32,234 nucleotides of DNA from Pyrinomonadaceae bacterium (GTDB lineage Bacteria > Acidobacteriota > Blastocatellia > Pyrinomonadales > Pyrinomonadaceae): assembly GCA_023717605.1 (NCBI GenBank), contig JAMQPH010000523.1, positions 1 to 32,234 on the forward strand, read 5' to 3'. The notes beneath the pieces were generated by a model. It was given only the letters and a program-made list of their open reading frames with translations, was not told the DNA's origin and ran no database searches. Shown here piece by piece: positions 311-32,234 of this stretch (within the stretch, counting starts at the first letter, position 1; each line of letters begins with the position of its first letter). Position numbers and translations under genes: made by a program.

Positions 311-382
311 GGTGTCAGGTATCGGGTGCCGGGTGTCGGTAGTAAAATCCAAACCGGCACCTGACACCCGAAACCTGACACC
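311..382. repeat. Inverted repeat of GGTGTCAGG-type words between two hydratase genes
   Basis: Arms 311-340 and 353-382 pair with about 26 of 30 positions around a 12-base loop. Each arm is built from near-copies of the word GGTGTCAGGT / TCGGGTGTC. The right arm ends on the first base of the stop codon of the hydratase gene at 382-384. RNA from either strand would form a strong hairpin; there is no T-run, so an intrinsic terminator is not evident. Confidence 0.8.
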
Positions 383-1191
383 TATTTGCCTTTAAATACT
401 GGTTTGCGTTTGTTTACGTAAGCGTCGATGCCTTCCTTCGCGTCTTCCGACTGAAACAGTTGCTGCTGCAGCTCGCGCTCGAGTGCAAGTGCCGACTCGA
501 AGGGTATCTCCGCTCCGGTCTGGACACTGCGCTTGATGAGACCGACTGCGAGGGAGGCCCGGTTAGGCGTAATGAACTGTCGCGCATATTCCAGCACTCT
601 TTCTAGAAAGGCCGTAGCATTCTCTGTTTCGTAGATGTCGTTAATGATCCCGAGTTGTTGGCCGCGTTCAAAATCGAACAGCTCGCCGCTGGCCATTAAC
701 TCAATTGCCTTCGACTTGCCAACCATACGCACCACCCGCTGCGTGCCGCCAGTTCCAGGGAGAACACCCAGAGAAACTTCCGGCAAGCCCATCTTGCCCG
801 CGCCTTTGCGGGCAATGCGAAGGTCAGCGGCCATCGCGACCTCCAATCCTCCACCCACGCAGTGTCCGTTAATCGCGGCGATCACGAGCTTTGCCGTTTG
901 TTCCAGACGCGACAGAGTTTCATTGGCGTGGAGACAAAAATAGTACTTGAAAGTGGGCGTCACGTCAGCAAGCATCTGGATATTGGCGCCGGCGCAGAAG
1001 AATTTCTCACCATTGCCCGTGATCACAATGACCTGGACACTCTCATCCATTCGGGCGGCTAGGATGCGTTGATCCAGCGTTTGCATCATCTCGTGTGTGT
1101 AGGTATTCGCCGGAGGATCGTTGAGGGTCAGAATCGCCACGCCCTGGTCGACGACGTAGGTTACGAGATTGGCTGTTTCGGTATGTAGCAT
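382..1191 (-). CDS. Enoyl-CoA hydratase (crotonase family) of the box cluster
   Basis: The protein has 269 residues, a full-length single-domain crotonase. The oxyanion-hole segment FFCAGANIQML and both catalytic glutamate contexts, GGGLE and GLPEVSLGVLPGTGG, are present, so hydratase chemistry is expected. The segment YFCLHANETLSRLE resembles the corresponding part of the first domain of the neighbouring BoxC (NFCKFTNETRCSIE), which suggests kinship with ring-cleavage-type crotonases more than with general fatty-acid hydratases. I chose the ATG at 1191 (MLHTETANLV) because the fold starts right after it. An in-frame ATG at 1221 would add ten residues encoded by repeat DNA. No good Shine-Dalgarno sequence precedes either. 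The start codon lies inside one arm of a 28-base perfect inverted repeat. A role after BoxC in benzoyl-CoA breakdown is inferred from context. Confidence 0.9.
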   Translation of the reverse strand: MLHTETANLVTYVVDQGVAILTLNDPPANTYTHEMMQTLDQRILAARMDESVQVIVITGNGEKFFCAGANIQMLADVTPTFKYYFCLHANETLSRLEQTAKLVIAAINGHCVGGGLEVAMAADLRIARKGAGKMGLPEVSLGVLPGTGGTQRVVRMVGKSKAIELMASGELFDFERGQQLGIINDIYETENATAFLERVLEYARQFITPNRASLAVGLIKRSVQTGAEIPFESALALERELQQQLFQSEDAKEGIDAYVNKRKPVFKGK

Positions 1192-1260
1192 AGACTTTAG
1201 TCTGTGGATCGCTGTGAACATTCAAACCGACACACAGACTAAAGTCTATGCTACATACCG
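1179..1260. repeat. REP-like 28-base perfect inverted repeat overlapping the hydratase start
   Basis: Arms 1179-1206 and 1233-1260 are perfect reverse complements separated by 26 bases. Each arm contains the small palindrome AGACT-TT-AGTCT followed by GTG, which resembles the hairpin at 9313-9330. The minus-strand hydratase ATG (1191) and its first four codons come from the arm, and the other possible ATG (1221) lies in the loop, so mRNA folding could hide the start. Confidence 0.9.
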
Positions 1261-1290
1261 CGTCTTTGCGTGATTACCATGCCATCGCTA

Positions 1291-2007
1291 TCACTCGAGC
1301 ACCCCTGAAGCGCGCCACACACTCACCAACTCCGTCCTGGGCTGAGCGGTGGAGTTTAGTTCTTCAGGCGCCAGTTCATCAACAAAACCATGCAGAAATA
1401 GTCGGGTGACGTGTTCAACCAGCTCTGCAACCTTCAACTTACCGCTGGGATCGTACCAATTGTAAATCCAGTTCATCATTCCGAAGAGCGCGTATGTGGC
1501 CGCTGTAAGATCCACACGACGCTTCTCAGGCTGCTCGGCTTGCAGCTCGCTGAGAATCTCTCGGGCCAGTCTTGTATATTTCTGCTTCTTGCCGGAAACA
1601 TGTTGATGCAGATCACCAGCAAGAGAATCGGCCTCATGTGAAAGAACTTTCATCTCCGCCATGTTAGCCGCGAAAAATGCGAGGTGATTGTCGATAAAGA
1701 TTCGTAGTTTTTGAATTGGTTCCGATACTTCCGCCAGTCGCTGTTCCAACCGATCCAGGACACGCCCGAAGCAGTTGTCCTGAATCAGAAACAATAATTC
1801 TTCCTTTGATTTGCAGTAATGGTAAAGGCCAGCGAGGCTCACTTCAGTGGCGCGCGAGATGTCCCGCATCGAAGTGGAGTGATAACTCTTTTCGGCAAAA
1901 ATGCGCGCCGCATTGCGCAGGATAAACTCCAGCTTCTGATCGAATTTCGGATTTCGAATTTCGGATTTCGAACTTTGTGACGACTGTGCTTGGGTGATTT
2001 CTGTCAT
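1291..2007 (-). CDS. TetR/AcrR-family regulator of the box cluster
   Basis: The 238-residue protein has an N-terminal TetR helix-turn-helix at about residues 27-75 (ILRNAARIFAEKSYHSTSMR followed by DISRATEVSLAGLYHYCKSK) and a long helical C-terminal ligand domain resembling FadR/PaaR-type acyl-CoA-responsive members. It lies between boxB and a hydratase gene, co-directional with both, so it most likely senses an aromatic or aliphatic CoA thioester and controls the cluster. The palindrome at 5191-5208 upstream of boxC is a plausible target. The first ~25 residues (about SEIRNPKFDQ) are encoded by an iterated ATTTCGGATTTCGA repeat and are probably not part of the ancestral protein. The ATG at 2007 is the only convincing start. 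Regulator identity is firm; ligand and operator are inferred. Confidence 0.9.
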   Translation of the reverse strand: MTEITQAQSSQSSKSEIRNPKFDQKLEFILRNAARIFAEKSYHSTSMRDISRATEVSLAGLYHYCKSKEELLFLIQDNCFGRVLDRLEQRLAEVSEPIQKLRIFIDNHLAFFAANMAEMKVLSHEADSLAGDLHQHVSGKKQKYTRLAREILSELQAEQPEKRRVDLTAATYALFGMMNWIYNWYDPSGKLKVAELVEHVTRLFLHGFVDELAPEELNSTAQPRTELVSVWRASGVLE

Positions 2008-2059
2008 AGGTACTAAGTTCCAAGTTCAGACGAAATCCGCAATCCGAATTTCGAAATTC
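1942..2059. repeat. Inverted repeat of ATTTCGGATTTCGA words spanning the tetR start
   Basis: Arms 1944-1970 and 2031-2057 match at about 23 of 27 positions when one is reverse-complemented. The left arm lies inside the coding sequence of the regulator (codons for SEIRNPKF). The loop holds its start codon at 2005-2007, and the right arm stops just before the boxB stop codon at 2060-2062. The boxB-tetR junction therefore consists almost wholly of repeat. Confidence 0.85.
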
Positions 2060-3457
2060 TTAAAGCCTCACGTACTCAAATTCGAACGGCTTGCCTTTGA
2101 CTCCCGCTGCCGGAGGTGCGATCCAGTTAGCGATCTTGCCGGGCTCGACCACCGGATGCATCAGGCTGCGCACGTATTCGCGGTCTTCGATGGTTGGAAG
2201 CCACTCTGCCTTCCGCTGCTCAAATTCTGCGGCGCTGATCGGATTTCCTTCGATGTCGAAGTGGTGACCGGCATACTCACCCACGTGGCGATGGAACCGC
2301 GTGTTTGGTAGGTAGATTCGATCGCTGATGCCAGCTTCGGCCAGTGTCTTGTTCCAGCGCGCCAAACCCTTCTCGCAGTCTCTTACGTATTCGCCCCGCA
2401 GCACTTCATTCAAAGCGTTTCTAAGCGCAACTTCGCGTGAACCAAGCTTCCCGTCTTCGACAACCGTCATGGTAAATGTTTGATCCGCAGCGAGATGGTC
2501 ACTGTACAGCTCCTGTTCCTTGTAACGACCCTTGAGGCCGGCTGCGAAGAAGTCTGCCGAGTTGGAGCTGATCTCTCCGCCGAACAAGTCGAGCGAATAG
2601 CTAAACCAGAAGTTGACGTGCTTCTGAATAATGTCCAAAGGGATGCCACCGAGCTGGCGCACATCACCTTCTTTCATTAACTGCGCGGTGCGCTTAACGA
2701 TCCGATTGATGCCGGTGTCACCGACAAACATGTGGTGCGCTTCTTCAGTCAGCATGAACTGACAAGTGCGCGCGAGTGGCTCAAACCCCGACTCAGCCAG
2801 TGCTGAGAGTTGATACTTGCCGTCGCGATCCGTGAACATCGTGAAGCAGAAAAAGTTGAGCCAGTCGTCACAGGGCTGGTTGAAGGCCTCCAAAATGCGG
2901 GGTTTATCGGGATTGCCGCTGCGACGTTCCAACAAAGCGTCCGCTTCGTCACGCCCATCGCGTCCGAAGTAGCGTTGCAGCAGGTAAACCATGGCCCAGA
3001 GGTGACGGCCCTCTTCCACATTCACCTGAAACAGGTTGCGCAAGTCGTAGAGCGAAGGGCAGGTCTTGCCGAGCTCGCGTTGCTGTTCGACTGAAGCGGG
3101 TTCCGTGTCGCCTTGCGTGACAATGATCCGGCGCAAAGAATTACGAAACTCACCGGGTACTTCCTGGTAAGCAGGCTGACCATAGTTGTCACCAAACCCA
3201 ATCGTCGCGCCGGGTTCAGCCGGCTTGAGAAAAATTCCCCAACGATAATCGGGCATCTTCACGAAGTCGAAGTTGGCCCAACCATCAGGTTCAACGCTGA
3301 TCGCCGTGCGCAAGTAGACGTCCTTATTCTGAAAACCTTCCGGCCCCATCTCGCGCCACCAGTCGAGATAATTCGGGAGCCATTTCTCAAGAGCGCGCTG
3401 CAGTTTCTTGTCCTCTGCCAGATTTACGTTGTTTGGTATGCGATCGTATAGATTCAT
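2060..3457 (-). CDS. boxB: Benzoyl-CoA 2,3-epoxidase, oxygenase component BoxB
   Basis: BoxB is a class I di-iron oxygenase that epoxidises benzoyl-CoA with O2 and electrons from BoxA, the first dearomatising step of aerobic CoA-dependent benzoate degradation. The 465-residue length fits the family (about 470). The two di-iron ExxH motifs are visible: EEGRH (E149, H152) and TEEAHH (E239, H242). E119 and D210 stand where the Azoarcus enzyme has its remaining ligands, offset by one residue (numbering of that enzyme from memory). The ATG at 3457 follows a weak AAGG. It lies 13 bases downstream of boxC in the same direction, so the two are co-transcribed. BoxA reductase is not in the window. Confidence 0.96.
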   Translation of the reverse strand: MNLYDRIPNNVNLAEDKKLQRALEKWLPNYLDWWREMGPEGFQNKDVYLRTAISVEPDGWANFDFVKMPDYRWGIFLKPAEPGATIGFGDNYGQPAYQEVPGEFRNSLRRIIVTQGDTEPASVEQQRELGKTCPSLYDLRNLFQVNVEEGRHLWAMVYLLQRYFGRDGRDEADALLERRSGNPDKPRILEAFNQPCDDWLNFFCFTMFTDRDGKYQLSALAESGFEPLARTCQFMLTEEAHHMFVGDTGINRIVKRTAQLMKEGDVRQLGGIPLDIIQKHVNFWFSYSLDLFGGEISSNSADFFAAGLKGRYKEQELYSDHLAADQTFTMTVVEDGKLGSREVALRNALNEVLRGEYVRDCEKGLARWNKTLAEAGISDRIYLPNTRFHRHVGEYAGHHFDIEGNPISAAEFEQRKAEWLPTIEDREYVRSLMHPVVEPGKIANWIAPPAAGVKGKPFEFEYVRL

Positions 3458-3470
3458 GAATTAACCTTAG

Positions 3471-5105
3471 CTACGTCCTCTTAAAATCAAACTGAGCCTG
3501 CGTTGGCTTTCCGTAATTAGTTAATGCACCGTGTTCGCCTACGGCGTTAGGGCGTTGGAAGATCCAGTTTTGCCAGGCGGTCAAACGACCGTAGATCTTG
3601 GTATCCATGGTTTCGGGTCCGGCAAATCTTAGAGACGCTTCCATTCCCGTCAGCGCGTCCGGCGACAACGAAGTTCTTTCTTCAATCGCCACGCGGATTT
3701 CATCTTCCCAATCCAGATCATCCGGCGCAAAAGTGACCAGGCCCAGTTCGTCCGCCCGTTCGGTGTCAAGCCTGCTTTTCTGAACGAGGATCTCGCCAAC
3801 GCTGTCGGGCGTTGCGATGAAGCGCGATTCCAATCGTGTCAGTCCGTTGCTCATCGGCAATGGACCAGCATTCAACTCACTCACCGCGACTTCAATAGGT
3901 TTATCCGGGCTATTGAGCATGTAAGTCCGATCTGAGGCGATTGCAAGTTCAAGCAAATTTCCGGCAAAGCAACTGCCAGGTTCAATCAAGGCAAAGAAAC
4001 TCTTCGCAGTGAGATCAAGTCGCCTGAGCACGCGCGCCATGTTCAACGTGATTTCGCGAATCAGCCAATGGTCCTGGTGTGCCGCCAGGGTCTTATCAAT
4101 AGTCAAGACGTCGTCGATGTTTCCTTCGGTGCGAAGGCAGACGAGGCCGGTCTCCGGTTCATTCACACGCAGATGCAGCAGGGCATCATCAAGTTCCCGG
4201 TACGCCTGCAGTGGCCAGTACGAGTCACCGAGGATCTGAATCTGTTCCGGCGTTGTCGGCAGACCGGACTCCGGACCGCGGATGGTCAAATCTGCGTAGC
4301 GTTGTTCGCGGTTCAGTTTCACACTGACGTACTTGTATTCCCGACCATCAGCGCTGGACTCAAATGCGAGCGAATTGAGTTTTATGCCGGGCCCGGAATT
4401 CATCTGACCATTGGCTTCTACAATGCTGTGGACCCGCGCCTTCAGTCCTTCCTGGAACTTGCTGGTAGGACAATAGTCATCGATGAGACCCCACTCCTTC
4501 GCGCGCTTGCCTTTTAGTCCCTCCGCCAGCGTCGAAAACACGTCGGCGCGATCGCGGCGGACCTTGCGTTTATCCACCAGTCGCGTCAAGCCTCCGGTGC
4601 CAGGCAATACGCCCAGGAGTGGTACTTCGGGAAGGGAAACGGCGGAGTTGCCATCGTCAACCAGATAGATCTCATCGCAGGCAATAGCCAGTTCATAACC
4701 TCCACCGGAGGCTGTTCCATTCAGCGCGGCCACGAATGTCTTGCCCGAATGAGTTGAAGAGTCCTCAATCGAACACCTCGTCTCATTCGTGAACTTACAG
4801 AAGTTAACCTTGAAAGCGTGTGACGAAGTGCCGAGCATGTAGATATTGGCGCCGGCGCAGAAGATGCGCGGCTTAAGGCTGGTGATCACCACAACCTGGA
4901 CTTGCGGGTGCTCAAATCGGAGACGCTGCACCGCATCGGCTAGTTCGATGTCGACTCCGAGGTCATAGGAATTGAGCTTGAGCTTGTACCCTTCGGCGAG
5001 CGTTGCCTCCTCCTGAACGTCCATCGAGAGAGTGGCTACCGGACCCTCAGTCGTAAGCCTCCAGTGCTTGTACTGCTCGGGCGATGTCTGAAAGTTAATT
5101 AGCAA
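3471..5105 (-). CDS. boxC: 2,3-epoxybenzoyl-CoA dihydrolase BoxC (ring cleavage)
   Basis: BoxC opens the ring of 2,3-epoxybenzoyl-CoA hydrolytically, yielding 3,4-dehydroadipyl-CoA semialdehyde and formate. The protein is 544 residues, the usual length of this two-domain crotonase. The N-terminal domain (about 20-260) keeps FCAGANIYML (82-91), GGGYE (134-138) and LPE (158-160) with LLGVLPGTGG after it. The C-terminal domain (about 265-544) is a degenerate crotonase repeat. The start is TTG at 5105: GGAGAA sits eight bases upstream, and the first in-frame ATG is only at residue 28, inside the fold. It is the first gene after the promoter at 5217-5246 and precedes boxB. Identity is firm from length, motifs and the neighbouring boxB. 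Confidence 0.95.
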   Translation of the reverse strand: MLINFQTSPEQYKHWRLTTEGPVATLSMDVQEEATLAEGYKLKLNSYDLGVDIELADAVQRLRFEHPQVQVVVITSLKPRIFCAGANIYMLGTSSHAFKVNFCKFTNETRCSIEDSSTHSGKTFVAALNGTASGGGYELAIACDEIYLVDDGNSAVSLPEVPLLGVLPGTGGLTRLVDKRKVRRDRADVFSTLAEGLKGKRAKEWGLIDDYCPTSKFQEGLKARVHSIVEANGQMNSGPGIKLNSLAFESSADGREYKYVSVKLNREQRYADLTIRGPESGLPTTPEQIQILGDSYWPLQAYRELDDALLHLRVNEPETGLVCLRTEGNIDDVLTIDKTLAAHQDHWLIREITLNMARVLRRLDLTAKSFFALIEPGSCFAGNLLELAIASDRTYMLNSPDKPIEVAVSELNAGPLPMSNGLTRLESRFIATPDSVGEILVQKSRLDTERADELGLVTFAPDDLDWEDEIRVAIEERTSLSPDALTGMEASLRFAGPETMDTKIYGRLTAWQNWIFQRPNAVGEHGALTNYGKPTQAQFDFKRT

Positions 5106-23108: not shown

Positions 23109-23708
23109 CTAGCGATCCCACTTCTTACCGTAATCCAGTATCGGATACTCCTTCCAAAGTGTTTTCGCGCGCTCATAACCAACTTGCTCAAGAAACTCCC
23201 GCGCGCTTGACCACGGCCAATCCTGCCAGTGCTCTACATATCCATGGTGTACGGGGTTATGGTGCACGTAATTCAAAGTAGCCAGAAAGTGTCGTTCGGA
23301 CTTCATCGGACGCTCAAAGCAGTTGTGCCACACTTTTCGTCCGCGAAGGTTATCCTCGCCATTCCATTTGAATGATGAGCGCCCGTGGAATTGCCCCAAA
23401 CCGCGCCGCAATTCTTTTATTTGATCAGTTTTGATTAGAGCGTGATAATGGTTCGGGAGTATACACCAGGCGTAAATCTGCGAACAAAACCCTTCGCATA
23501 CCTCAATTACTGATGCTTCGCATTCTGTCATCCGTTCCGCGGTGGTGCCTATAACGGACTGATGCTCGTAACACGCAGATGAAATGAGGTATTGACGACT
23601 CCCCTCAAAGTCCAGGTGAGGTGGTGAATGCCACGGCAGATGACCGGACTGACGAAGTGCAAGAGCCTCTTGCTTTTGAATTTCGGTGAGCTTACGCTAG
23701 TTGTACAT
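23109..23708 (-). pseudogene. REP-associated Y1 (HUH) transposase, TAG stop at codon 4
   Basis: Reading back from 23109 in one frame gives a full transposase-like protein of about 199 codons. It includes KLTEIQKQEALALRQSGHLP, WHSPPHLDFEGSRQYLISSA, the HUH motif in NHYHALI and the catalytic tyrosine in NYVHHNPV. These single-strand transposases (RAYT/TnpA_REP) mobilise REP hairpins. The natural ATG at 23708 is followed by TAC AAC TAG, so the reading frame is closed by an amber codon at 23697-23699. The first ATG after that (23531) would remove the N-terminal third of the fold. The gene is therefore probably dead unless an alternative start or suppression is used. Inverted REP-like repeats lie on both sides. 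Confidence 0.85.
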
Positions 23709-23789: not shown

Positions 23790-24245
23790 TCATTGGTGCA
23801 AGCTTTCTTTGATTCTCTCAGCGGTCTTTGGTCCAATACCGTCGACCAATTCCAAACCGCCGCTAGCGACGAACTTCTTTAGCTCAGCAAGCGAAGAGAC
23901 TTTGAACTTCTGATGGAGAGTAGCTGCGGTCTTTGGTCCAATTCCGGGGATCTCAAGCAGGTCAAGTAGGGTAGCCGGCGTTTCCGTGGTGATTCGTTCC
24001 CACGCGTCGAACGTGCCGCGATCAAGAAGCTCGACAATCTTTCCGGCGATTGCTTTCCCGACTCCGGGAATGCTCTGCAAGCCCGGGAGACCCTCATTTG
24101 CGGCGATTGTTTTTAAAGGCTTCGGCCAGGTTTCGATGGCCTCGCCGGCATTGCGATAAGAGCGCCAGCGAAAAGGATCGTCGCCCCGAAGCTCCATCAG
24201 TGCCGCAAGGCGGTAAAAACTCCGGGCGATGGCTTCGTTGTCCAT
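23790..24245 (-). CDS. Stand-alone PolX-type N-terminal helix-hairpin-helix protein
   Basis: The 151-residue protein matches the N-terminus of family X DNA polymerases: the 8-kDa lyase-like domain (IARSFYRLAALMELRGDDPF then RWRSYRNAGEAIE, about 5-37). Three helix-hairpin-helix motifs follow (SIPGVGKAIAGKI near 58, EIPGIGPKTAATL near 98, VDGIGPKTAERI near 135). It ends there: no polymerase palm/thumb and no PHP nuclease domain follow, and the DNA downstream is repeat and transposase. It starts six bases after the argB stop and so is probably transcribed with the arginine operon. It may bind gapped DNA or carry 5'-dRP lyase activity; function is inferred. Confidence 0.85.
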   Translation of the reverse strand: MDNEAIARSFYRLAALMELRGDDPFRWRSYRNAGEAIETWPKPLKTIAANEGLPGLQSIPGVGKAIAGKIVELLDRGTFDAWERITTETPATLLDLLEIPGIGPKTAATLHQKFKVSSLAELKKFVASGGLELVDGIGPKTAERIKESLHQ

Positions 24246-24251
24246 TCGTAG

Positions 24252-25163
24252 TTACGCCACGATCATGGTGCCCGTTCCTCTATCGGTGAAAATCTCCGAG
24301 AGGAGGGCATTGCGCTTCGTGCCGCTGATGACGTGCGCGCTGTGGACACCGCGTCGCAGCAGCTCGGAAATGCTCTGTAGTTTGGGAATCATTCCGCCCG
24401 TCGCACTTCCATCGTTGACCAAAGCATCGGCCTGATCGGCGGTCAGTTTTGAGAGTTTCGATTCGGGGTTGCCTGCCTGCAAATAGATGCCATCGACATC
24501 GGAAAGCAGAATCAATTTTTCCGCTTTAAGTTGAATCGCAATTTCGGCGGCGATAGTGTCGGCATTGATATTGAATACCGTTCCTTCAGCATCGGCTCCA
24601 AGAGATGAGATAACGGGAAGATAACCCTCCTTCAGCAACACCATCAGCAAACGCGCATTGATCTCCACTACGTCGCCAACGTGACCAAAATCGACATGCG
24701 AACGTTCGCCCGTTTCGCGGTTGAGAATCTCCTTTGCCGGTCGGCGTTCTGCATGAACAATGTTTCCATCGATGCCTGACAAGCCAACTGCTTCAATGCC
24801 TCTATTGCGCAATGCGGAAAGAATATCTATGTTGATTGTCCCCGCAAAGACCATCTTGGCCATCTCGAGTGTCGCGTCATCGGTCACGCGCCGGCCGTTT
24901 ATGATGGTTTGCTCTATGCCCATGCGCGTCGCCAACTCGCTCAACTGCTTTCCGCCGCCGTGGACGACGCAGATGCGGATGCCGACCTGATGAAGCAAAG
25001 CCAACTCCTCAGCCAGCGAGCTAAGGTTCTCCTGGTTCTCAGTCGCCTTACCCGAAAGTTTGACGACAAAGGTCTGACCTTTGAAACGTTGAATATAGGG
25101 CAATGCCTCGCGTAGTAAATCGAGGCGTAGCTGGCTGCCGACTTCGCTGGTTGCTTCGCTCAT
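24252..25163 (-). CDS. argB: N-acylglutamate kinase (acetylglutamate kinase family)
   Basis: ArgB phosphorylates N-acetyl- (or N-succinyl-) glutamate, the second step of arginine synthesis. The 303-residue protein has the amino-acid-kinase motifs VVKLSGKA (28-35), VVHGGGKQLSE and LLSDVDGIY. An N-terminal helix of about 25 residues (LREALPYIQRFKG) precedes the kinase core. That helix is typical of hexameric, arginine-inhibited enzymes, so feedback inhibition by arginine is likely. The ATG at 25163 is chosen; no clear Shine-Dalgarno is seen and a TTG at 25199 would add 12 residues. It lies downstream of the transcarbamylase gene, separated by an inverted repeat. Confidence 0.95.
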   Translation of the reverse strand: MSEATSEVGSQLRLDLLREALPYIQRFKGQTFVVKLSGKATENQENLSSLAEELALLHQVGIRICVVHGGGKQLSELATRMGIEQTIINGRRVTDDATLEMAKMVFAGTINIDILSALRNRGIEAVGLSGIDGNIVHAERRPAKEILNRETGERSHVDFGHVGDVVEINARLLMVLLKEGYLPVISSLGADAEGTVFNINADTIAAEIAIQLKAEKLILLSDVDGIYLQAGNPESKLSKLTADQADALVNDGSATGGMIPKLQSISELLRRGVHSAHVISGTKRNALLSEIFTDRGTGTMIVA

Positions 25164-25204
25164 GTCTATGAAATCAAAACGACGATCCGCCAAGCACAAA
25201 TAGA

Positions 25205-25334
25205 AAACGAGCCGCGGATTTTCGCGGATATACGCGAATCAGCAAACAAAAGACCGCGAACAAGCAGGCGCTTCCTTGGCTGGTATGCCATATTGCCTTA
25301 TCCGCGAGAGTCCGCGTTAATCCGCGGCTCGTTT
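25205..25334. repeat. Inverted repeat of GCCGCGGATT words overlapping the transcarbamylase stop
   Basis: Arms 25205-25241 and 25298-25334 share AAACGAGCCGCGGATT and a looser run of CGCGGAT words. The right arm encodes the last residues (NKRAAD) and the stop codon (25317-25319) of the transcarbamylase gene. The loop of about 56 bases shows nothing recognisable. Confidence 0.85.
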
Positions 25335-26345
25335 ATTCTGTGGCTTCACTTTCATCAACTCAGCGAGAATCGCCTTCTGTACATGCAAACGGTTCTCAGC
25401 CTCGTCGATCACCACCGAGGCCGGGGAATCAATTACCCCGTCGGTCACGATCACGTTGCGCCTCACCGGCAAGCAGTGCATGAAAATCCCGTGATTCGTG
25501 CGTGCCATTTTCCCTTCATCCACAATCCACTTCTCACGATATTGCGCCCGCTCCGCAATGTCTCGATCCGGCGTTCCGTAAAAATGTTTCCCGCCCCAGC
25601 TCTTCGCATAAACAACCTCGGCGCCCTCAACGGCCTGGTCAATGTCGCTTGTTATTTGCACACTGCCGCCCGCTTCCATAGCCTTGTGCCTGATTGTTTC
25701 CATCAACTTCTCATCCAGTTCGTAACCCAACGGATGCGCAACCGTGAGGTCGTGACCCATCTGGGCGGCAGCCAGAGCAAAACTGTTAGGCACCGCCATC
25801 GGCAGCGGTTTAGGGTGCCAGGCCCAGGTCAACGTCACCTTCTTTTTACCCGCGTCGAGCTTTTCTCGAATCGTCATCATGTCGGCCAGCGCCTGACAGG
25901 GATGATGCATCGCGGATTCGAGATTGATAATCGGTACTTCTGAATACTTTGCGAAGGCATTGAGTACCGGATCCACCCTGTCTTCGCTCCAGTCGTTCAT
26001 GGCGGCAAATGTCCTGACGCCGATCGCCGAACCGTAGCGACTAAGCACGCGCACAAACTCCGCCAGATGTTCTGTCTTATCGCCGTCCATTACCACGCCG
26101 TCTCGGTGTTCCAGCGTCCAGCTCGTCCCGCCTGGTTCCAGGACTACCGCATTTCCACCCAGTTCGTAAATACCAACCTGCATTGAGGCGCGTGTGCGCA
26201 AGCTGGGATTGAAGAACACCAGCGCCACTGAACGCCCAGCCAGGGGCTTGGACACATCGATGGCATGTTTGAACCGCTCGGCCGCGTGAAGCAAACGCTC
26301 CAGATCTTCCAGCGGGTAGTCGACAGTACTTAGAAAGCCTTTCAT
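25317..26345 (-). CDS. argF': N-acylornithine carbamoyltransferase (acetyl/succinyl type)
   Basis: The 342-residue enzyme carbamoylates an N-acylornithine, not ornithine, so ArgE-type deacylation comes after this step. Carbamoyl-phosphate site residues are in FFNPSLRTRAS (44-54) and HPCQALADM. The active-site loop HCLPVRRN is at 290-297. By alignment from memory with Xanthomonas N-acetylornithine transcarbamylase, its specificity Glu92 corresponds to T91 here (DGDKTEH) and its carboxylated Lys302 to I299 (RRNVIVTD). The Bacteroides N-succinylornithine enzyme has Pro and Ile there, and the local blocks HPKPLPMAVPNSFA and VRRNVIVTD also look like the succinyl type. The ATG at 26345 is preferred over a TTG-initiated longer frame. 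The last residues (NKRAAD) derive from a repeat. Confidence 0.9.
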   Translation of the reverse strand: MKGFLSTVDYPLEDLERLLHAAERFKHAIDVSKPLAGRSVALVFFNPSLRTRASMQVGIYELGGNAVVLEPGGTSWTLEHRDGVVMDGDKTEHLAEFVRVLSRYGSAIGVRTFAAMNDWSEDRVDPVLNAFAKYSEVPIINLESAMHHPCQALADMMTIREKLDAGKKKVTLTWAWHPKPLPMAVPNSFALAAAQMGHDLTVAHPLGYELDEKLMETIRHKAMEAGGSVQITSDIDQAVEGAEVVYAKSWGGKHFYGTPDRDIAERAQYREKWIVDEGKMARTNHGIFMHCLPVRRNVIVTDGVIDSPASVVIDEAENRLHVQKAILAELMKVKPQNKRAAD

Positions 26346-26618: not shown

Positions 26619-27833
26619 TCATGCCTCCCCCTGCGAACCCAGGTTAGCGATCACCGTCTTAAGCTCGTCGACGAAAAGGTCTATTTCAGAAGGCCTGAGG
26701 CATAGAGCCGGCAAGAGCCGCAGCACCTTGGGATCGCTCGAGGTTCCGGTAATAACATTTCGTTCCAGCAGGCCTTTATGAATCGGCGCTGCTTTATCGG
26801 CGAACTCCAGTCCAAGCAGGAAACCCAGACCTCGCACCTGCGTCACGTGAGGTATTTCGGCAATTCGGTTGCGCAATTGCGCCTCAACCTCTTTCACATT
26901 TTCCAGCATCGAATCTTTCTCTATTGCTTCGAGCGTGGCGGTGACAGCGGCCATGGCAATCATGCCGCCACCAAATGTGGTACCCAGGTCATTCTCTTTG
27001 ATGTGCGAGGCGATCTTCTCCGAAACCAAACAGGCACCAACCGGAATGCCGCTACCAAGCGCCTTGGCAAGTGTGATTACGTCGGGGACAATTCCACCGC
27101 CCGCATCGCTGCCGGCAAAAAACCACTCGCCGGTGCGGCCGATGCCTGTCTGGACCTCGTCATAAATCAAAACAATTCCCTGTGCGTCGCAGAGTTTTCT
27201 CAGTTCCCGAAAGAACTGAGGTGCAGCTGTGCGCACACCGGCCATCGACTGAATCGGCTCCAGCATGATTGCTGCGACCGTTTCGTCCGCCAGCTTTCGT
27301 GCCGATTCTATGTCGCCAAACTCGGCCTGCAGATGACCGGGCACGTTTGGTTTACCTAATTCGCGGTACTTTCCCAGAAAGGTGGCGCTGATAGCGTCGG
27401 CTGTACGTCCATGGAAACCGCCCGAAAAGGTGATTATGTTTTCGCGGCCTGAAGCGAGCCGGGCCATACGCATGGCGTTCTCATTAGCCTCGGTTCCGGA
27501 GTTGCAAAAGAAAACTTTCCTGAGCGACTCCGGGGCAATTGAGATGAGTTTCTCCGCAGCTCGAGCCCGCGCCTCGGAATAGACCAGGTTGGAGTAGAAG
27601 AGCAATTTCTCCGCCTGCTCGGTTATCGCTGCTACCACGTGCGGGTGCGAATGGCCGGTTCCCGCGACCGCGTGACCACCATAGAGATCGAGATACTTCT
27701 GACCATCGCAGGCGTAAAGCCAGACGCCTTCGCCACGCTCTGCGACGATCGGCATCTTCTTGTAAGTCGCGAGTGGAAAGGTCTCCTCGCTGGCCACAGT
27801 TCCCGTTGCGTTCTTAGAAGGTTGTACTTTCAT
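26619..27833 (-). CDS. argD: Acetylornithine/N-acylornithine aminotransferase
   Basis: ArgD converts N-acylglutamate semialdehyde to N-acylornithine with glutamate and PLP. The 404-residue class III aminotransferase shows the PLP-phosphate loop NSGTEANE (111-118), IYDEVQTGIGRTG with D225 holding the pyridine nitrogen, and the Schiff-base lysine K257 in TLAKALGSGIP. The length is normal. It overlaps the upstream tRNA-binding protein gene by four bases (ATGA), so it is tightly coupled. Given the unusual transcarbamylase, its real substrate may be the N-succinyl form. Confidence 0.96.
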   Translation of the reverse strand: MKVQPSKNATGTVASEETFPLATYKKMPIVAERGEGVWLYACDGQKYLDLYGGHAVAGTGHSHPHVVAAITEQAEKLLFYSNLVYSEARARAAEKLISIAPESLRKVFFCNSGTEANENAMRMARLASGRENIITFSGGFHGRTADAISATFLGKYRELGKPNVPGHLQAEFGDIESARKLADETVAAIMLEPIQSMAGVRTAAPQFFRELRKLCDAQGIVLIYDEVQTGIGRTGEWFFAGSDAGGGIVPDVITLAKALGSGIPVGACLVSEKIASHIKENDLGTTFGGGMIAMAAVTATLEAIEKDSMLENVKEVEAQLRNRIAEIPHVTQVRGLGFLLGLEFADKAAPIHKGLLERNVITGTSSDPKVLRLLPALCLRPSEIDLFVDELKTVIANLGSQGEA

Positions 27834-28216
27834 CCTGCCCTTGTCCCATCGGGAATCTTATTCTCGGGAATAGCCAGCACAGGCACCAATCCATCGGAAT
27901 AACCGATATCAAACAGCATGCCCTCTGAGCTCTGGCCCATCATCTTCCTTGGCTCCAGGTTCACCACGAACAAGGCTTGCTTACCTACGAGCTCTTGCGG
28001 GTTTTCGCGCTCCTGTTTCATCCCCGCGAGAATAGTTCGATGGACGTTCCCAAGCGCGACAGTCAACTTCAGCAGTTTGTCGGAACCCGCCACGTCTTCG
28101 ACTGACAAGATAGTGCCGACGCGAATGTCAATCTTGTCGAGATCGGCAGTCGTTATCGTTGGCTTGATAGGGGCAATAGCGAGGTCCATAGAAATCGATT
28201 CGCTTGGCCTGTTCAC
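27830..28216 (-). CDS. CsaA/MetRS-C-terminal-like tRNA-binding domain protein
   Basis: The 128-residue protein is a single OB-fold tRNA-binding domain like the C-terminus of methionyl-tRNA synthetase, CsaA and Trbp111. Marks are KIDIRVGTILSVEDVAGSDK (about 25-44), LAGMKQ, LVGKQALFVVNLEPRKMMG and SEGMLFD. It probably binds tRNA or chaperones proteins as a dimer. The start GTG at 28216 overlaps the argC TGA (GTGA), and its stop overlaps the argD ATG (ATGA), locking it between the two. An ATG at 28189 is the alternative start and keeps the whole domain. Its presence inside an arginine operon has no obvious biochemical reason. Confidence 0.87.
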   Translation of the reverse strand: MNRPSESISMDLAIAPIKPTITTADLDKIDIRVGTILSVEDVAGSDKLLKLTVALGNVHRTILAGMKQERENPQELVGKQALFVVNLEPRKMMGQSSEGMLFDIGYSDGLVPVLAIPENKIPDGTRAG

Positions 28217-29253
28217 GGATTGGTGCCTATCAGCATCAGACCTGTCTTCTCGTCGAGTCCAAACATCAGATTCATGTTCTGCACCGCCTGTCCCGCCGCG
28301 CCTTTGACGAGATTATCCAAAGCAGAGAAGACCACCACCTGACGTCCACGTGTTGCAAAACCAAGATCGCAGAAGTTTGTGGTCTTGACCCAGTTGATGT
28401 CCGGAGAACCTTTCACGATCCGGATAAAGAATGAGCCGTTATAGAAGTCACTGAAAACGGAGCGCACCTCGTCTTCGTTGATCTCTTGCTTAGTCTCGAC
28501 GTAGATAGAGGCAAAAATGCCGCGCGAGACAGGAAGCGAATGCGTCATAAAGACAAGTTCGCTGTCCCAGTTTCCGACCGCACGGAGCTCCTGCTCCACT
28601 TCCGGCACGTGCTGGTGAGTAAATGGCTTATAGGCGTAAAACGAATTCATCCGTTGGGGATGATGCGTATTTGCCGCCGCTTTGGCGCCGGAACCGGAAG
28701 AGCCGGTTTTAGCGTCCACGACTACGCGGCCTTCGATGAGGTTTCCGGCAACTAGCGGCGCCAGACCGAGCAAAGTTGCGGTTGCGAAACATCCGGGATT
28801 GCTAATCAGTCTCGCCTTTCTGATCGCGTCGCGATTGGTTTCGGTGAGACCGTAAACAAACTCCGCTTGAGTGTCCATGGCCGTGTGCTCACGGCTGTAG
28901 TGTTGCTCAAACTCTGCCTTGTCGCGCAGCCGAAAGTCGCCGGATAGATCGATTACCTTGACCCTTGAGGGCAGACGCGGTGCAATCTCCATCGCTTGAC
29001 CATGGGGCAACGCGAGAAACGCACAATCGAGATCCGTCAGCTTCTCGAGATCCTCAGGCACTTTGCTGAGCTTCAAATCAGTCAGTCCATGAAGACTTCG
29101 ATGCACTTCGCTCACCGATTTTCCAGCGTGTTCGTTGGCAGTAACGAAAGCAATCTCAGCGTTCGGATGCGGCAGGAGGATGCGCAACAGTTCCGAGCCG
29201 CCATAGCCCGAACCGCCAAAAATTCCCACTCGTATCCTGTCCGTCAACGTCAT
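28213..29253 (-). CDS. argC: N-acetyl-gamma-glutamyl-phosphate reductase
   Basis: ArgC reduces N-acylglutamyl phosphate to the semialdehyde with NADPH. The 346-residue protein has the Rossmann start VGIFGGSGYGGSELLRIL (9-26) and the catalytic cysteine C155 in SNPGCFATA. The substrate-binding HHPQRMNSF region follows near 205. The ATG is at 29253. It is separated from the P-loop protein gene by a 224-base stretch carrying a small plus-strand gene, so argC may have its own promoter. It is translationally coupled to the tRNA-binding protein gene downstream. Confidence 0.96.
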   Translation of the reverse strand: MTLTDRIRVGIFGGSGYGGSELLRILLPHPNAEIAFVTANEHAGKSVSEVHRSLHGLTDLKLSKVPEDLEKLTDLDCAFLALPHGQAMEIAPRLPSRVKVIDLSGDFRLRDKAEFEQHYSREHTAMDTQAEFVYGLTETNRDAIRKARLISNPGCFATATLLGLAPLVAGNLIEGRVVVDAKTGSSGSGAKAAANTHHPQRMNSFYAYKPFTHQHVPEVEQELRAVGNWDSELVFMTHSLPVSRGIFASIYVETKQEINEDEVRSVFSDFYNGSFFIRIVKGSPDINWVKTTNFCDLGFATRGRQVVVFSALDNLVKGAAGQAVQNMNLMFGLDEKTGLMLIGTNP

Positions 29254-29333: not shown

Positions 29334-29480
29334 ATGCGCTATGCTCCCTTCCCCTTCTTTGCCCTGGCGATAGCTTTCATCGCTATCGGTGCCAGCGGGC
29401 AACGCACGTTTATATACGTGGGCATCGTATTTCTTATCCTGGCGTTGGTTCTCATGCGCAAGCTGCATAGCAGCAACTAA
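29334..29480 (+). CDS. 48-residue two-helix membrane protein opposite the arginine operon
   Basis: ATG at 29334 is preceded by AGAGGA at good spacing. The product MRYAPFPFFALAIAFIAIGA then SGQRTFIYVGIVFLILALVL and MRKLHSSN has two hydrophobic helices (about 6-20 and 25-41) around a short polar turn, with a basic end. It is the only plus-strand gene in the arginine region. Its TAA overlaps the stop of the convergent P-loop gene by four bases, and it diverges from argC. Function is unknown; the ribosome site and clean membrane topology argue that it is real. Confidence 0.7.
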   Translation: MRYAPFPFFALAIAFIAIGASGQRTFIYVGIVFLILALVLMRKLHSSN

Positions 29481-30580
29481 GCGCGAGCCCCGACAAGTTT
29501 CTGGGGTCCCGCTGCTTCAACCTTCGACTTGATTAGTTCGAAGAGGAGTGCGCCGTTCCGCTTGGAATTTGCGGCGGGAATGCCAAATTCGTTCTGAATG
29601 TAATCCTCACCCATTTTCGAATCGGTTACCGACCCGGAGATTACATCGATTTCGATCCCTCGTTTGCGCAGCAGTTCTATGCCGCCCCAGGCTCCGACGT
29701 AGTCCGAAGCGCAGAAGATGATGGCAGCGGTCTGTTCCCGTAATTCAGGGTCATCTAAGATTGATTCGACCGAATAGCCACCAAGAATTCCGTCACCCAA
29801 CTCAATCACGATCAGATCAGGCGAGCTCTCGTTGAGTCGGGAAATTATCGTCTTAGCGACTGGAGAAAGGTCACCTACATCCACTGTGGAGGGCAGTCCA
29901 CAATCGAGAAAACTTGCGGTCGCGATTGCCCCGTGATCGGTCATGTTCAGGGTATCGCGTAGGCAGGCGACCCCTGAGAGCTTGCCCGCCGCCACCTGAA
30001 GGCCGGCGCGAGTGGCCTGCTTTATTAGTTCTGTCGCGGCGAAGGTCTTACCGCTGTTCATGCTTGTTCCCGCCACCATCACGATTGGCGCCGTCTCGCC
30101 CAGATTTGCGCGCAGGGGCAAGGCGGCGTCCGCAATGTTAAGGGCCCGCCCTTTTTCATCACACACCACGCCGATGACTTCGACTTTGATCGCATCACCC
30201 AGGCTCGAGTGATGTCCTGTGCAATAGCCAATGACTCCGCCCAGGCTGAGCAGATGAAGTTGATCGCCGGCATCGACGGCCTGCGGCACATCGCCAACAA
30301 AACCTTTCAACGCACGTCGCCGCCCCAGGACGCCAATAACCACATCGCCGGGATTGATCTTAGCCAGCCTTCCGGTAGGCAGTTCGAGCATGTTGTAAGT
30401 GGCGCTGTCCGTTAAAGTGCGAACGGCGATAACATCACCAGCCTGCGGCGTTCGACTACCGTTTGTAACGGCTACGGTACGCGCAAGACCAAGCGGCGAA
30501 GTGGCTGAGCCAAGCTTGTCGGCTTCCACGATCTTGACGACGGTGTAATGGGTATCGGTTGTTTGGTCGGTTTTGTTCAT
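29477..30580 (-). CDS. P-loop NTPase-fold protein of unknown function in the arginine operon
   Basis: The 367-residue protein has two parts. Residues 1-160 are beta-rich (VIAVRTLTDSATYNMLELPT, then KINPGDVVIGVLGRRRALKG), probably barrel- or Rossmann-like. Residues 160-360 form a P-loop domain with Walker A GTSMNSGKT (171-179), AAGKLSGVACLRDTLNM (197-213), a Walker B-like strand LIVIELGDG (256-264) and IFCASDYVGAWGG (288-300). The layout recalls DUF1611/DgcN and dethiobiotin-synthetase-type SIMIBI folds, but identity is not certain. Its ATG is directly next to the argG stop with no gap, so it is in the same transcript. A glutamate N-acyltransferase or ligase role would fit the pathway but is speculative. 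Confidence 0.8.
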   Translation of the reverse strand: MNKTDQTTDTHYTVVKIVEADKLGSATSPLGLARTVAVTNGSRTPQAGDVIAVRTLTDSATYNMLELPTGRLAKINPGDVVIGVLGRRRALKGFVGDVPQAVDAGDQLHLLSLGGVIGYCTGHHSSLGDAIKVEVIGVVCDEKGRALNIADAALPLRANLGETAPIVMVAGTSMNSGKTFAATELIKQATRAGLQVAAGKLSGVACLRDTLNMTDHGAIATASFLDCGLPSTVDVGDLSPVAKTIISRLNESSPDLIVIELGDGILGGYSVESILDDPELREQTAAIIFCASDYVGAWGGIELLRKRGIEIDVISGSVTDSKMGEDYIQNEFGIPAANSKRNGALLFELIKSKVEAAGPQKLVGARA

Positions 30581-31786
30581 CTACTTCGTACCTCTGTTTC
30601 GCTGTCTCAATCTCAGGGCGTTCAATTTTATAAACCCTTCCGCGTCGCGCTGGTTGTAAACCGAATCGGCCTCGAAAGTTGCCAGCTTTTCGCTGTAGAG
30701 CGAGTAAGGCGACCGCCGCCCGACCGTGAGGGCGTTGCCGCGATAGAGCTTCAAGCGAACGTCGCCCGTGACTTTTCTTTGGGTCGCGTCAACCATCTCG
30801 CGCAACAACTCAAACTCCGGCGCAAACCAGAATCCGTAATAGACGCTCTCCGCAAATTTCACTCCCAGGGAATCGCGCAAGTGCATCACTTCGCGATCGA
30901 GCGTGATTGATTCCAGCGCCCGGTGTGCGGCCAGCAGGATGGTCACTCCGGGAGTTTCATAAACGCCGCGTGACTTCATTCCCACAAACCTGTTCTCAAC
31001 CAGATCGACCCGGCCGATGCCGTGCTCACCACCCAACTTGTTTAGGGTTTCGAGCAGCGACACGGGATCCATCGCCTGACCATTGACGGCCACCGGTTCG
31101 CCCTTGTCGAACGAGATCTCGACATACTCAGCCTGGTCCTTTGCGTTTTCCGGAGACTTCGTAAGTTGAAAGATATTCTCCGGTGCCTCGGCCCAGGGAT
31201 CCTCAAGGATGCCGCCTTCGTACGAGATGTGCATGAGATTGCGATCCGTCGAATATGGCTTCGCATGAGTTGCTGTGACAGGAATCTGGTGTTGCTCGGC
31301 GTAAGCAATCAGATCGCTGCGGCCCTTGAACTCCCATTCACGCCAGGGAGCTATCACTTTGATGTCGGGTTCGAGTGCGTAATAGGTCAACTCAAAACGC
31401 ACCTGGTCGTTACCCTTACCGGTAGCGCCGTGCGCCACCGCATCCGCTCCTTCCTTCCGCGCGATCTCGATCTGGCCTTTGGCGATCACGGGGCGGGCGA
31501 GGGAAGTGCCCAGCAAGTAGACCCCCTCATAGAGTGCGTTCGCCTTAACGGCAGTCCAGACGTAATCGCGGACGAACTCTTCGCGCAGGTCTCCCACGTA
31601 GAGTTTCGACGCACCCGTTGCGAGCGCCTTGGCCTCCAGGCCATCCATTTCCTCGCCCTGGCCTACATCAGCGCAATAGCAAACAACCTCGCAGCCGTAC
31701 TCCTCCTTCAACCAGCGCAGCATGACGGACGTATCGAGACCGCCTGAGTAAGCGAGGACTATCTTGTTGATTCTCTTCTGTGACAA
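30581..31786 (-). CDS. argG: Argininosuccinate synthase
   Basis: ArgG joins citrulline and aspartate with ATP to give argininosuccinate. The 401-residue protein has the ATP pyrophosphatase motif [10 protein letters not shown] (12-21), the block [15 protein letters not shown] (about 117-131) and [15 protein letters not shown] (about 178-192). Length fits the family. The start is TTG at 31786, supported by GAGGAG six bases upstream; no ATG lies near the start of the fold. It is the first gene after argR and a heptamer repeat array, and the P-loop protein gene follows immediately. Repression by ArgR with arginine is expected, but no clear ARG box is visible in 31787-31934. Confidence 0.97.
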
Positions 31787-31934: not shown

Positions 31935-32234
31935 TTATCCAAACAACTCCCAAACCTTCTTAATCACGGCCCGCTGTGCTTTCCGGTCATTGACCGCAAT
32001 AAAGATCGTATCCTCGCCGGCGATCGTACCGACGATTTCCTCGATTGCCGCACCGTCGATATTCACGGCAACGGCAGACGCCATTCCTGGTTCAGTACGC
32101 GCCACCACAAGACTCTCGCCCGCCAAATCGAGACTCAGGAGTCCTCGTGCTGCGGCTCCATTCGAACGCTGCACGGTGTAGTGCCCGTGATGCTTTACAA
32201 CTCCCAACTCCTCCAGGTCGCGGGACACACTCGA
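31935..32234 (-). CDS. argR: Arginine repressor ArgR, 5' end cut by window
   Basis: Only the C-terminal 99 residues are present. They include the end of the winged-helix DNA-binding domain (SSVSRDLEELGVVKHHGHYT, with the SR contact motif) and the whole hexamerisation/arginine-binding domain. The latter has the strongly conserved GTIAGEDTIFIAV (about 67-79). ArgR represses arginine synthesis genes when arginine is bound. It is upstream of and co-directional with argG, so it probably heads or precedes the arginine operon and controls it. Confidence 0.93.
   Translation of the reverse strand, partial: SSVSRDLEELGVVKHHGHYTVQRSNGAAARGLLSLDLAGESLVVARTEPGMASAVAVNIDGAAIEEIVGTIAGEDTIFIAVNDRKAQRAVIKKVWELFG

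Follow-up and report, generated by a model that had tools for sequence, protein, structure and literature searches.

Switch residues place an Acidobacteriota transcarbamylase on the succinyl side, in an operon with a candidate first enzyme for arginine synthesis

The closest described relatives of the genes treated here are the N-acetylornithine transcarbamylase (AOTCase) of Xanthomonas campestris (3kzk and others), the N-succinylornithine transcarbamylase (SOTCase) of Bacteroides fragilis (1js1, 2fg6) and the succinylated arginine pathway described for Bacteroidetes in excerpts of PMC7311316, for which ArgA2 has been proposed as the N-succinylglutamate synthase (excerpts of PMC9026213 and PMC7311316). 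According to an excerpt of PMC4581275, Glu92, Asn185 and Lys302 mark the acetyl enzyme, and Ala/Ser/Pro/Val/Gln, Pro and Val/Ile/Glu at the same three sites mark the succinyl enzyme; excerpts of PMC7311316 and PMC4581275 treat site 92 as a single-residue specificity switch. Here we analysed a 32,234-nucleotide contig of a Pyrinomonadaceae bacterium (JAMQPH010000523.1, positions 1 to 32,234; hereafter the window), whose arginine operon encodes a knotted-type transcarbamylase, argF', and a P-loop protein that we call DUFx. From the sequences, we put at roughly 0.65 the probability that argF' is a succinylornithine transcarbamylase in a succinylated arginine operon with DUFx as its first enzyme. 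The transcarbamylase gene and its switch codons are as follows.

25317..26345, minus strand: argF', N-acylornithine carbamoyltransferase of the knotted type, with switch residues of succinyl type (open reading frame, alignments, NF003384 at 462 bits, model)
26073..26075, minus strand: codon of T91, opposite Xanthomonas E92 and B. fragilis P90 (alignment)
25800..25802, minus strand: codon of P182, opposite Xanthomonas N185 and B. fragilis P181 (alignment)
25449..25451, minus strand: codon of I299, opposite Xanthomonas K302 and B. fragilis I282 (alignment)

The reading frame gives 342 amino acids from its ATG (367 if translation begins at a GTG 25 codons further up), with two Pfam transcarbamylase domains at residues 3-161 and 185-328. 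An earlier note, made from the sequence alone, had proposed that the enzyme is tuned for N-succinylornithine, with Thr91 at the E92 site and Ile299 at the K302 site, and both placements hold in HMMER alignments. T91 falls, within an ungapped block, in the column where Xanthomonas chains 3l05, 3l06 and 3l02 carry Ser, Val and Ala, their PDB titles being E92S, E92V and E92A; I299 falls in the column where 3m4n and 3m5d show Ala and Arg (titled K302A and K302R). Alignment with both characterised enzymes thus finds Thr, not Glu, at the switch site. The window's own Glu92 was rejected as a candidate for that site, as it aligns with Xanthomonas E93 and the equal numbering misleads. The third diagnostic position, Asn185, which the note had not named, is Pro182. 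Against the B. fragilis chain 1js1, T91 aligns with P90, P182 with P181 and I299 with I282, so the Bacteroides enzyme does carry the Pro and Ile that the note gave for it. The acetyl set Glu92/Asn185/Lys302 is therefore replaced throughout by T91/P182/I299, with Pro at site 185 and Ile at site 302 as in SOTCases. This residue pattern is confirmed, and the proposed succinyl tuning is supported, as each of the three sites falls on the succinyl side, although Thr itself is off the published list.

B. fragilis W75, F112, E142, H176, K236 and R278 are conserved in argF', which retains Trp76, Phe113, Glu143, His177, Lys248 and Arg295, and the proline-rich loop HPKPLPMAVP is present, W76 standing opposite W75, the tryptophan of the 80's loop. 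The succinyl anchors are H176, R178 and R278, of which the His and Arg278 are kept and R178 is replaced by Lys179. We take Xanthomonas Glu92, contributed by the neighbouring subunit, and the modified Lys302 to line the acyl pocket. With Thr91, Pro182 and Ile299 in place and the other pocket residues kept, a succinyl group should fit, and the succinyl reading of argF' is well supported by these comparisons. PDB titles record Xanthomonas E92A, E92P, E92S and E92V with carbamyl phosphate and an N-succinyl ligand, as well as a B. fragilis P90E mutant.

Overall similarity gives another answer. argF' is 53% identical to the acetyl enzyme (173/328 aligned) versus 41% to the B. fragilis SOTCase (130/314), so similarity alone would assign the opposite specificity, and the motif ENRLHVQK, which the note had called shared or acetyl-type, is indeed common to the acetyl enzyme and absent from B. 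fragilis. The AlphaFold model of argF' (predicted local distance difference test, pLDDT, 94.2) retrieves Xanthomonas structures at Foldseek ranks 1-10 and the B. fragilis SOTCase next; among the top ten are E92 mutants with an N-succinyl ligand in their titles. NCBIfam NF003384, ‘N-acetylornithine carbamoyltransferase’, scores 462 bits against a cut-off of 288, in an output that holds no separate succinyl model and is thus not discriminating. We rejected the database name as arbiter of specificity, since it reflects overall score.

To place argF' within its family, we assembled transcarbamylases from Acidobacteriota genomes, titled genome_contigs records and plasmid records with Bacteroidota and Xanthomonas arginine genes. 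Removal of near-identical sequences reduced 140 locus proteins to 112, which with the window and one PDB chain gave 114 rows; 10 ornithine-type rows were set apart, leaving 104 knotted-type rows that span Acidobacteriota, Bacteroidota, Planctomycetota and others. Of these, 96 carry the full succinyl triad (Thr counted) and 5 are mixed (loci L034, L038, L040, L167 and L173). The other 3 have the acetyl triad; they are the PDB chain, X. sacchari and a single Acidobacteriota locus, L043. Site 92 is T in 53 rows, A in 23, S in 11, P in 8, E in 4, Q in 3, V in 1 and I in 1, and Glu occurs there in 0 of the 17 knotted-type rows from genome_contigs records not titled Acidobacteriota. Relatives as distant as ~43% identity still have the triad, any substitutions staying among succinyl-type residues.

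A family phylogeny, which the earlier note had suggested as a check, confines the acetyl triad to one small clade. In this maximum-likelihood tree of 76 rows, made after thinning close Pyrinomonadaceae, the clade unites Xanthomonas and L043, and its sister, L168, is succinyl-type (support 98/87); the six Bacteroidota rows form a single clade on a long branch. By this placement the acetyl triad appears to be a derived state of a minority, with deep branches poorly resolved. In both acetyl-triad loci seen, ArgB is fused to a NAT acetyltransferase domain; the window's ArgB has none. The L043 genome (G047) holds a Xanthomonas-like acetyl set comprising an E/N/K transcarbamylase, an M20 gene and an ArgB-NAT fusion; its grouping with Xanthomonas (100/99) suggests that transfer lies behind this set.

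The genes around argF' form an operon in the order argR-argG-DUFx-argC-[tRNA-binding]-argD-argF'-argB.

24252..25199, minus strand: argB, N-acylglutamate kinase (Pfam: kinase domain only)
26619..27833, minus strand: argD, N-acylornithine aminotransferase, class III (below NCBIfam argD cut-offs)
27830..28216, minus strand: small tRNA-binding-domain gene within the operon (4-base overlaps with argC and argD)
28213..29253, minus strand: argC, N-acyl-gamma-glutamyl-phosphate reductase (TIGR01850, 398 bits)
29477..30580, minus strand: DUFx, 367-amino-acid SIMIBI-type P-loop protein, candidate N-acyl(succinyl)glutamate synthase (gap of 0 after the argG stop)
30581..31786, minus strand: argG, argininosuccinate synthase (NCBIfam)
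31935..32228, minus strand: argR, arginine repressor, truncated at its N terminus by the contig end (NCBIfam/Pfam)

Neither argH nor a deacylase gene was found on the window contig, which ends within argR; in L052, L053, L054 and L063, argH lies divergently beyond argR. The order argG-argC-argD-argF'-argB is common to the window and two Cytophagales operons, those of Bernardetia and Persicobacter, which read GNAT-argG-argC-argD-argF'-argB-M20-argH and include a SOTCase-type gene. By its place, the GNAT beside argG is taken to be ArgA2. The window differs from this Bacteroidetes arrangement in missing the GNAT beside argG and in having DUFx within the operon. The earlier note had extended its residue claim to a whole route run on succinylated intermediates outside Bacteroidota. 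This extension is supported only indirectly: the gene order is common to Cytophagales, the window's genome has no match to ArgJ or the Cytophagales GNAT and no ArgA over cut-off, and ArgB lacks the NAT domain of the acetyl-triad loci.

We searched 297 Acidobacteriota genomes for these genes. argF' occurs in 75 (matches at E 1e-60 or better, excluding G032, which falls with ornithine-type rows, and G207, a partial piece at 53% identity), DUFx in 78 (E 1e-70 or better), ArgJ over cut-off in 114, argF' and DUFx together in 66, and none of the three in 96. Any DUFx match at all was obtained in 97 genomes; in 7 of these the sole copy belongs to a paralogue group at ~1e-47 to 1e-61, and 12 gave nothing beyond weaker P-loop hits. 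Co-occurrence with ArgJ was found in 0 of 297 genomes for both DUFx and argF', and none of the 21 families tabulated has both DUFx and ArgJ. Fisher tests for the pairings of argF', DUFx and ArgJ gave P values of 2.9e-43, 1.6e-19 and 1.2e-20, which ignore relatedness and are merely indicative; the genome sets were transcribed by hand from match tables. ArgA over cut-off was found in 5 of 297 genomes, every one an ArgJ genome. A profile of three Cytophagales GNAT genes, identified by place and run without a positive control in whole Bacteroidota genomes, gave 2 matches in 297, both weak and partial and neither in a DUFx genome. In aggregate, none of the 78 DUFx genomes yielded ArgJ or ArgA over cut-off or a GNAT match. 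The 96 genomes with none of the three may reflect auxotrophy, assembly gaps or further enzymes; in four genomes (G084, G124, G180 and G202) the query found no transcarbamylase at E 0.001.

Gene neighbourhoods tie DUFx to the same route. Among 40 Acidobacteriota argF' loci, 31 hold DUFx, typically in the order argG-DUFx-argC-(argD)-argF'-argB, and at least three of the remaining nine genomes (G132, G141 and G274) hold it elsewhere. An M20 gene accompanies arginine genes in 16 of the 40 and stands together with DUFx in 14. In L045, L046 and L047, argR, argD, argF', argB, an M20 deacylase, argH, argG, DUFx and argC lie together, and the sole step without a gene is the first, glutamate acylation. 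Eight genomes from four further families have DUFx but no knotted-type match, in the order DUFx-argC-argD-argB (L077-L084; fragmented assemblies), an arrangement that links DUFx with the acylglutamate part of the pathway rather than with the transcarbamylase.

This association extends beyond the phylum. In a scan of genome_contigs we kept the best 80 of at least 573 stretches related to DUFx, with flanks of up to 9 kb. A core arginine gene (argB, C, D, G, H or a transcarbamylase) lies in the flanks of 77 of these 80 records, and two or more lie in 71. Of the 31 records whose titles name neither Acidobacteriota nor one of its groups, 28 have a core arginine gene in the flanks of DUFx, under the titles Planctomycetota, Sumerlaeota, Wallbacteria, Spirochaetes, Gemmatimonadetes and Myxococcota, with several ‘proteobacterium’ or plain ‘bacterium’ bins (bin titles may be wrong); no arginine gene was found in the fetched flanks of L151, L153 and L175. 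A knotted-type transcarbamylase is present in 17 of the 31.

DUFx itself has no NCBIfam match at E 0.001, and we found no publication on it, or on succinyl-type arginine synthesis in Acidobacteriota, in the open-access literature. Its best Pfam hit is the P-loop of DUF1611 (PF07755; E 5e-4, 19.9 bits versus a gathering score of 25). Since the window protein and five relatives all fall below that score, we rejected DUFx as a DUF1611 member and kept a remote superfamily kinship. The DUFx model (pLDDT 93.4) has a beta-rich N-terminal half, and Foldseek returns SIMIBI P-loop proteins, with dethiobiotin synthetase (BioD) first, DgcN (7xrj) at rank 16 and a DUF1611 protein at rank 36; template-modelling (TM) scores of ~0.35 to the query mean that only the P-loop half matches. 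BioD is also the first profile match, at the P-loop, and DUFx differs from it in its beta-rich N-terminal half and its arginine-operon context. Fourteen residues are invariant in 114/114 DUFx sequences: Y62, E66, R88, K178, T179, K200, D209, E260, G262, D263, G264, Y269, D293 and N338. The pattern of K178/T179 (the P-loop), K200, D209 and E260 resembles that of dethiobiotin synthetase.

In hhalign, DUFx matches the DUF1611 profile with a probability of 74% (P 2.8e-5, 83 columns). A DUF1611 query retrieves 7xrj, titled ‘N-acetyltransferase DgcN-25328’, at 5e-26 in phmmer, which makes it a member of that family by sequence. Two fetched DUF1611 genes adjoin an enolase-superfamily gene, a pair that we take to resemble dgcN-dgcA, and DgcN acylates D-glutamate. 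DUFx shares with DUF1611/DgcN structures (2g0t, 2obn, 7xrj) a weak similarity over the P-loop half (Foldseek E 2e-5, TM 0.34), but dethiobiotin synthetases and HypB score equally well or better, so the link is kinship at superfamily level. A distant cousin that acylates glutamate makes the assignment of DUFx plausible, not demonstrated. We propose DUFx as a candidate for the missing N-acyl(succinyl)glutamate synthase; succinyl is preferred over acetyl because of the partner transcarbamylase, and because acetyl-triad loci have a NAT domain on ArgB instead.

A DUFx paralogue subfamily (L085-L091, from G018, G250, G136, G016, G129, G132 and G053; E ~1e-46 to 1e-61) lies outside arginine clusters, also in ArgJ genomes, and all seven members keep K178, K200, D209 and E260. 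Their neighbours include ABC exporters (L085, L086 and L087), M20 peptidases (L088 and L090) and an AstE/AspA-like gene (L086), and perhaps these paralogues acylate other amino acids for export.

In the proposed route, DUFx would make N-succinyl-L-glutamate, by transfer from succinyl-CoA or by ATP-dependent ligation, and ArgB, ArgC and ArgD would work on succinylated intermediates. argF' would then carbamoylate N-succinyl-L-ornithine to N-succinylcitrulline, from which an M20 deacylase, an operon gene in some relatives and absent from this contig, would free citrulline for argG and argH to finish. A broader proposal, to which we give an even chance, is that DUFx founds a new N-succinylglutamate synthase family on a SIMIBI/BioD-like P-loop fold, unrelated to the GNATs (ArgA, ArgA2) and to ArgJ; that with argF' it constitutes a succinylated route widespread outside Bacteroidota, in Acidobacteriota, Planctomycetota, Sumerlaeota and others; and that the Xanthomonas acetyl enzyme is a derived side branch.

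A number of observations weigh against a succinylated route begun by DUFx. No characterised acyltransferase family matches DUFx above the Pfam threshold. M20 matches in the window's genome are weak, partial or at contig ends, and in the genome_contigs scan M20 is absent from the flanks of all 49 Acidobacteriota-titled DUFx loci and present in 9 of the 31 others. In Bacteroides finegoldii and Parabacteroides, argF' stands alone, outside any arginine operon. Finally, 9 of the 75 argF' genomes lack a DUFx match. One is acetyl-type (G047), one a fragmented assembly (G072) and one unexplained (G116), and the remaining six (G125, G133, G157, G165, G188 and G211) come from the same family as the window.

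These six retain argF', argB and argG, and argC and argD are kept in all four whose cluster was examined; on a weakly resolved tree their distribution needs about three changes. No replacement first enzyme was found in the six genomes, for which no exhaustive GNAT census was made. A 178-amino-acid GNAT beyond argR in L065 (G188), which we take to be an ordinary RimI-type protein, is rejected for now, as no counterpart was found in the other five genomes' stretches (for G165 and G211, the argG region and 4 kb around argF'). A 181-amino-acid gene in L059 (G125) has no Pfam match, and its relatives also lie near argF' in DUFx-bearing genomes. Near argG, the genomes without DUFx share genes for methyltransferases and a SnoaL-like protein, among others. 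In L056 (G157), L057 (G133) and L059, argR directly adjoins argC.

The alternative that survives best, although we judge it unlikely, is that DUFx is another arginine part (a deacylase, a regulator or a partner ATPase) and that an unrecognised GNAT or other enzyme elsewhere takes the first step. The persistence of further route genes in the six DUFx-less family members fits this alternative, as do the many functions of the P-loop superfamily and the annotated first enzyme implied for Acidiparvus by an excerpt of PMC11561045. Yet DUFx is unneeded as a deacylase in the 14 of 40 loci where it stands with M20, L045, L046 and L047 have a gene for each step except the first, DUFx and ArgJ are mutually exclusive over the 297 genomes, and DUFx has the place beside argG that the GNAT takes in Bernardetia and Persicobacter.

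Slightly lower in our estimation, and likewise unlikely, is that argF' is acetyl-specific through other residues, or promiscuous, in an acetylated route for which DUFx makes N-acetylglutamate. Weighing for it, and against a succinylated route, are the greater overall similarity to the acetyl enzyme, the first place of acetyl-enzyme structures in Foldseek, and Thr at site 92, which is outside the list excerpted from PMC4581275. The Lys for B. fragilis R178 counts against the succinyl reading, though Lys occupies that site in 85 of 104 rows, Parabacteroides and Bernardetia among them; the Xanthomonas enzyme has it too. In loci where DUFx precedes argC-argD-argB with no knotted-type match, an acetyl route with an ordinary ornithine transcarbamylase is the simpler guess, and among the listed fold relatives only DgcN bears an acyltransferase title, which reads N-acetyltransferase. 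Against this, site 92 is the published single-residue switch (excerpts of PMC7311316 and PMC4581275) and sites 185 and 302 agree with it; acetyl-triad rows are a small clade with a succinyl-type sister; and acetyl-triad loci carry the ArgB fusion that the window lacks. That the whole cluster is a contaminant contig is very improbable: the metagenome bin has 909 contigs and 5.3% estimated contamination, but a genome of the same genus, G181 (L053), holds the cluster in identical order at 72-85% identity per gene, and other members of the family likewise.

Other genes of the window are recorded here for completeness. The tRNA-binding gene of the operon (27830-28216) is MetG C-terminal/CsaA-like, below NCBIfam cut-offs, and has a relative in the arginine operons of L052 and L054. 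Directly after argB, 23790-24245 (minus strand) encodes a 151-amino-acid protein with helix-hairpin-helix domains only, similar to the N-terminal region of family X DNA polymerases; it also lies by argB in L053. A 140-amino-acid IS200-like (Y1) transposase-type protein is encoded near the operon at 23109-23531 (minus strand). The region 382-5105 (minus strand) holds an enoyl-CoA-hydratase-like gene, a TetR-like regulator, a PaaA/PaaC-like protein of 465 amino acids (Pfam 27.0 bits, slightly below cut-off) and a crotonase-like protein of 544 amino acids, which we take to be the BoxB/BoxC part of aerobic benzoyl-CoA degradation.

Physiology bears on the first step in two groups. We assign three genomes to Chloracidobacterium on the basis of their FMO protein. 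They have argF' and DUFx, and our searches found no other first enzyme in them. The genus is described as the only chlorophyll-based phototrophic one of the phylum (excerpt of PMC8245765), and C. thermophilum is reported to need only Ile, Leu, Val and Lys, the other amino acids being said to be made (excerpt of PMC4376005, in whose available text the word arginine does not occur). Arginine would then be made without any other first enzyme covered by our searches, although the three genomes may be sister species. Counting against the route is the lack of any M20 match in two of them, G109 and G149 (three-sequence profile, E 0.001; weak in the third), where deacylation may be performed by another family. 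In Holophagaceae, an excerpt of PMC11561045 reports N-acetylglutamate synthase as lacking except in Acidiparvus. The same source calls the arginine pathway complete in 61 Acidiparvus metagenome-assembled genomes, a further point against DUFx as first enzyme, which implies that it counts a first enzyme that our profile searches of G166 and G287 did not find. In these two genomes, taken as Acidiparvus, DUFx is present, and no ArgJ, over-cut-off ArgA or GNAT match was found. DUFx could fill the first-step gaps of both Holophagaceae and Chloracidobacterium.

Arginine synthesis is a textbook pathway, yet its first enzyme is reported missing in most Holophagaceae (excerpt of PMC11561045). If the switch rule holds, the transcarbamylase described here carries the wrong substrate name, and succinylated arginine intermediates, placed in Bacteroidetes by excerpts of PMC4581275, PMC7311316 and PMC9026213, are predicted for several further phyla. 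More far-reaching and newer than the residue claim is DUFx, one conserved gene with at least 573 related stretches, which we name as the likely missing enzyme and as a candidate for the unassigned first step of arginine synthesis in several phyla.

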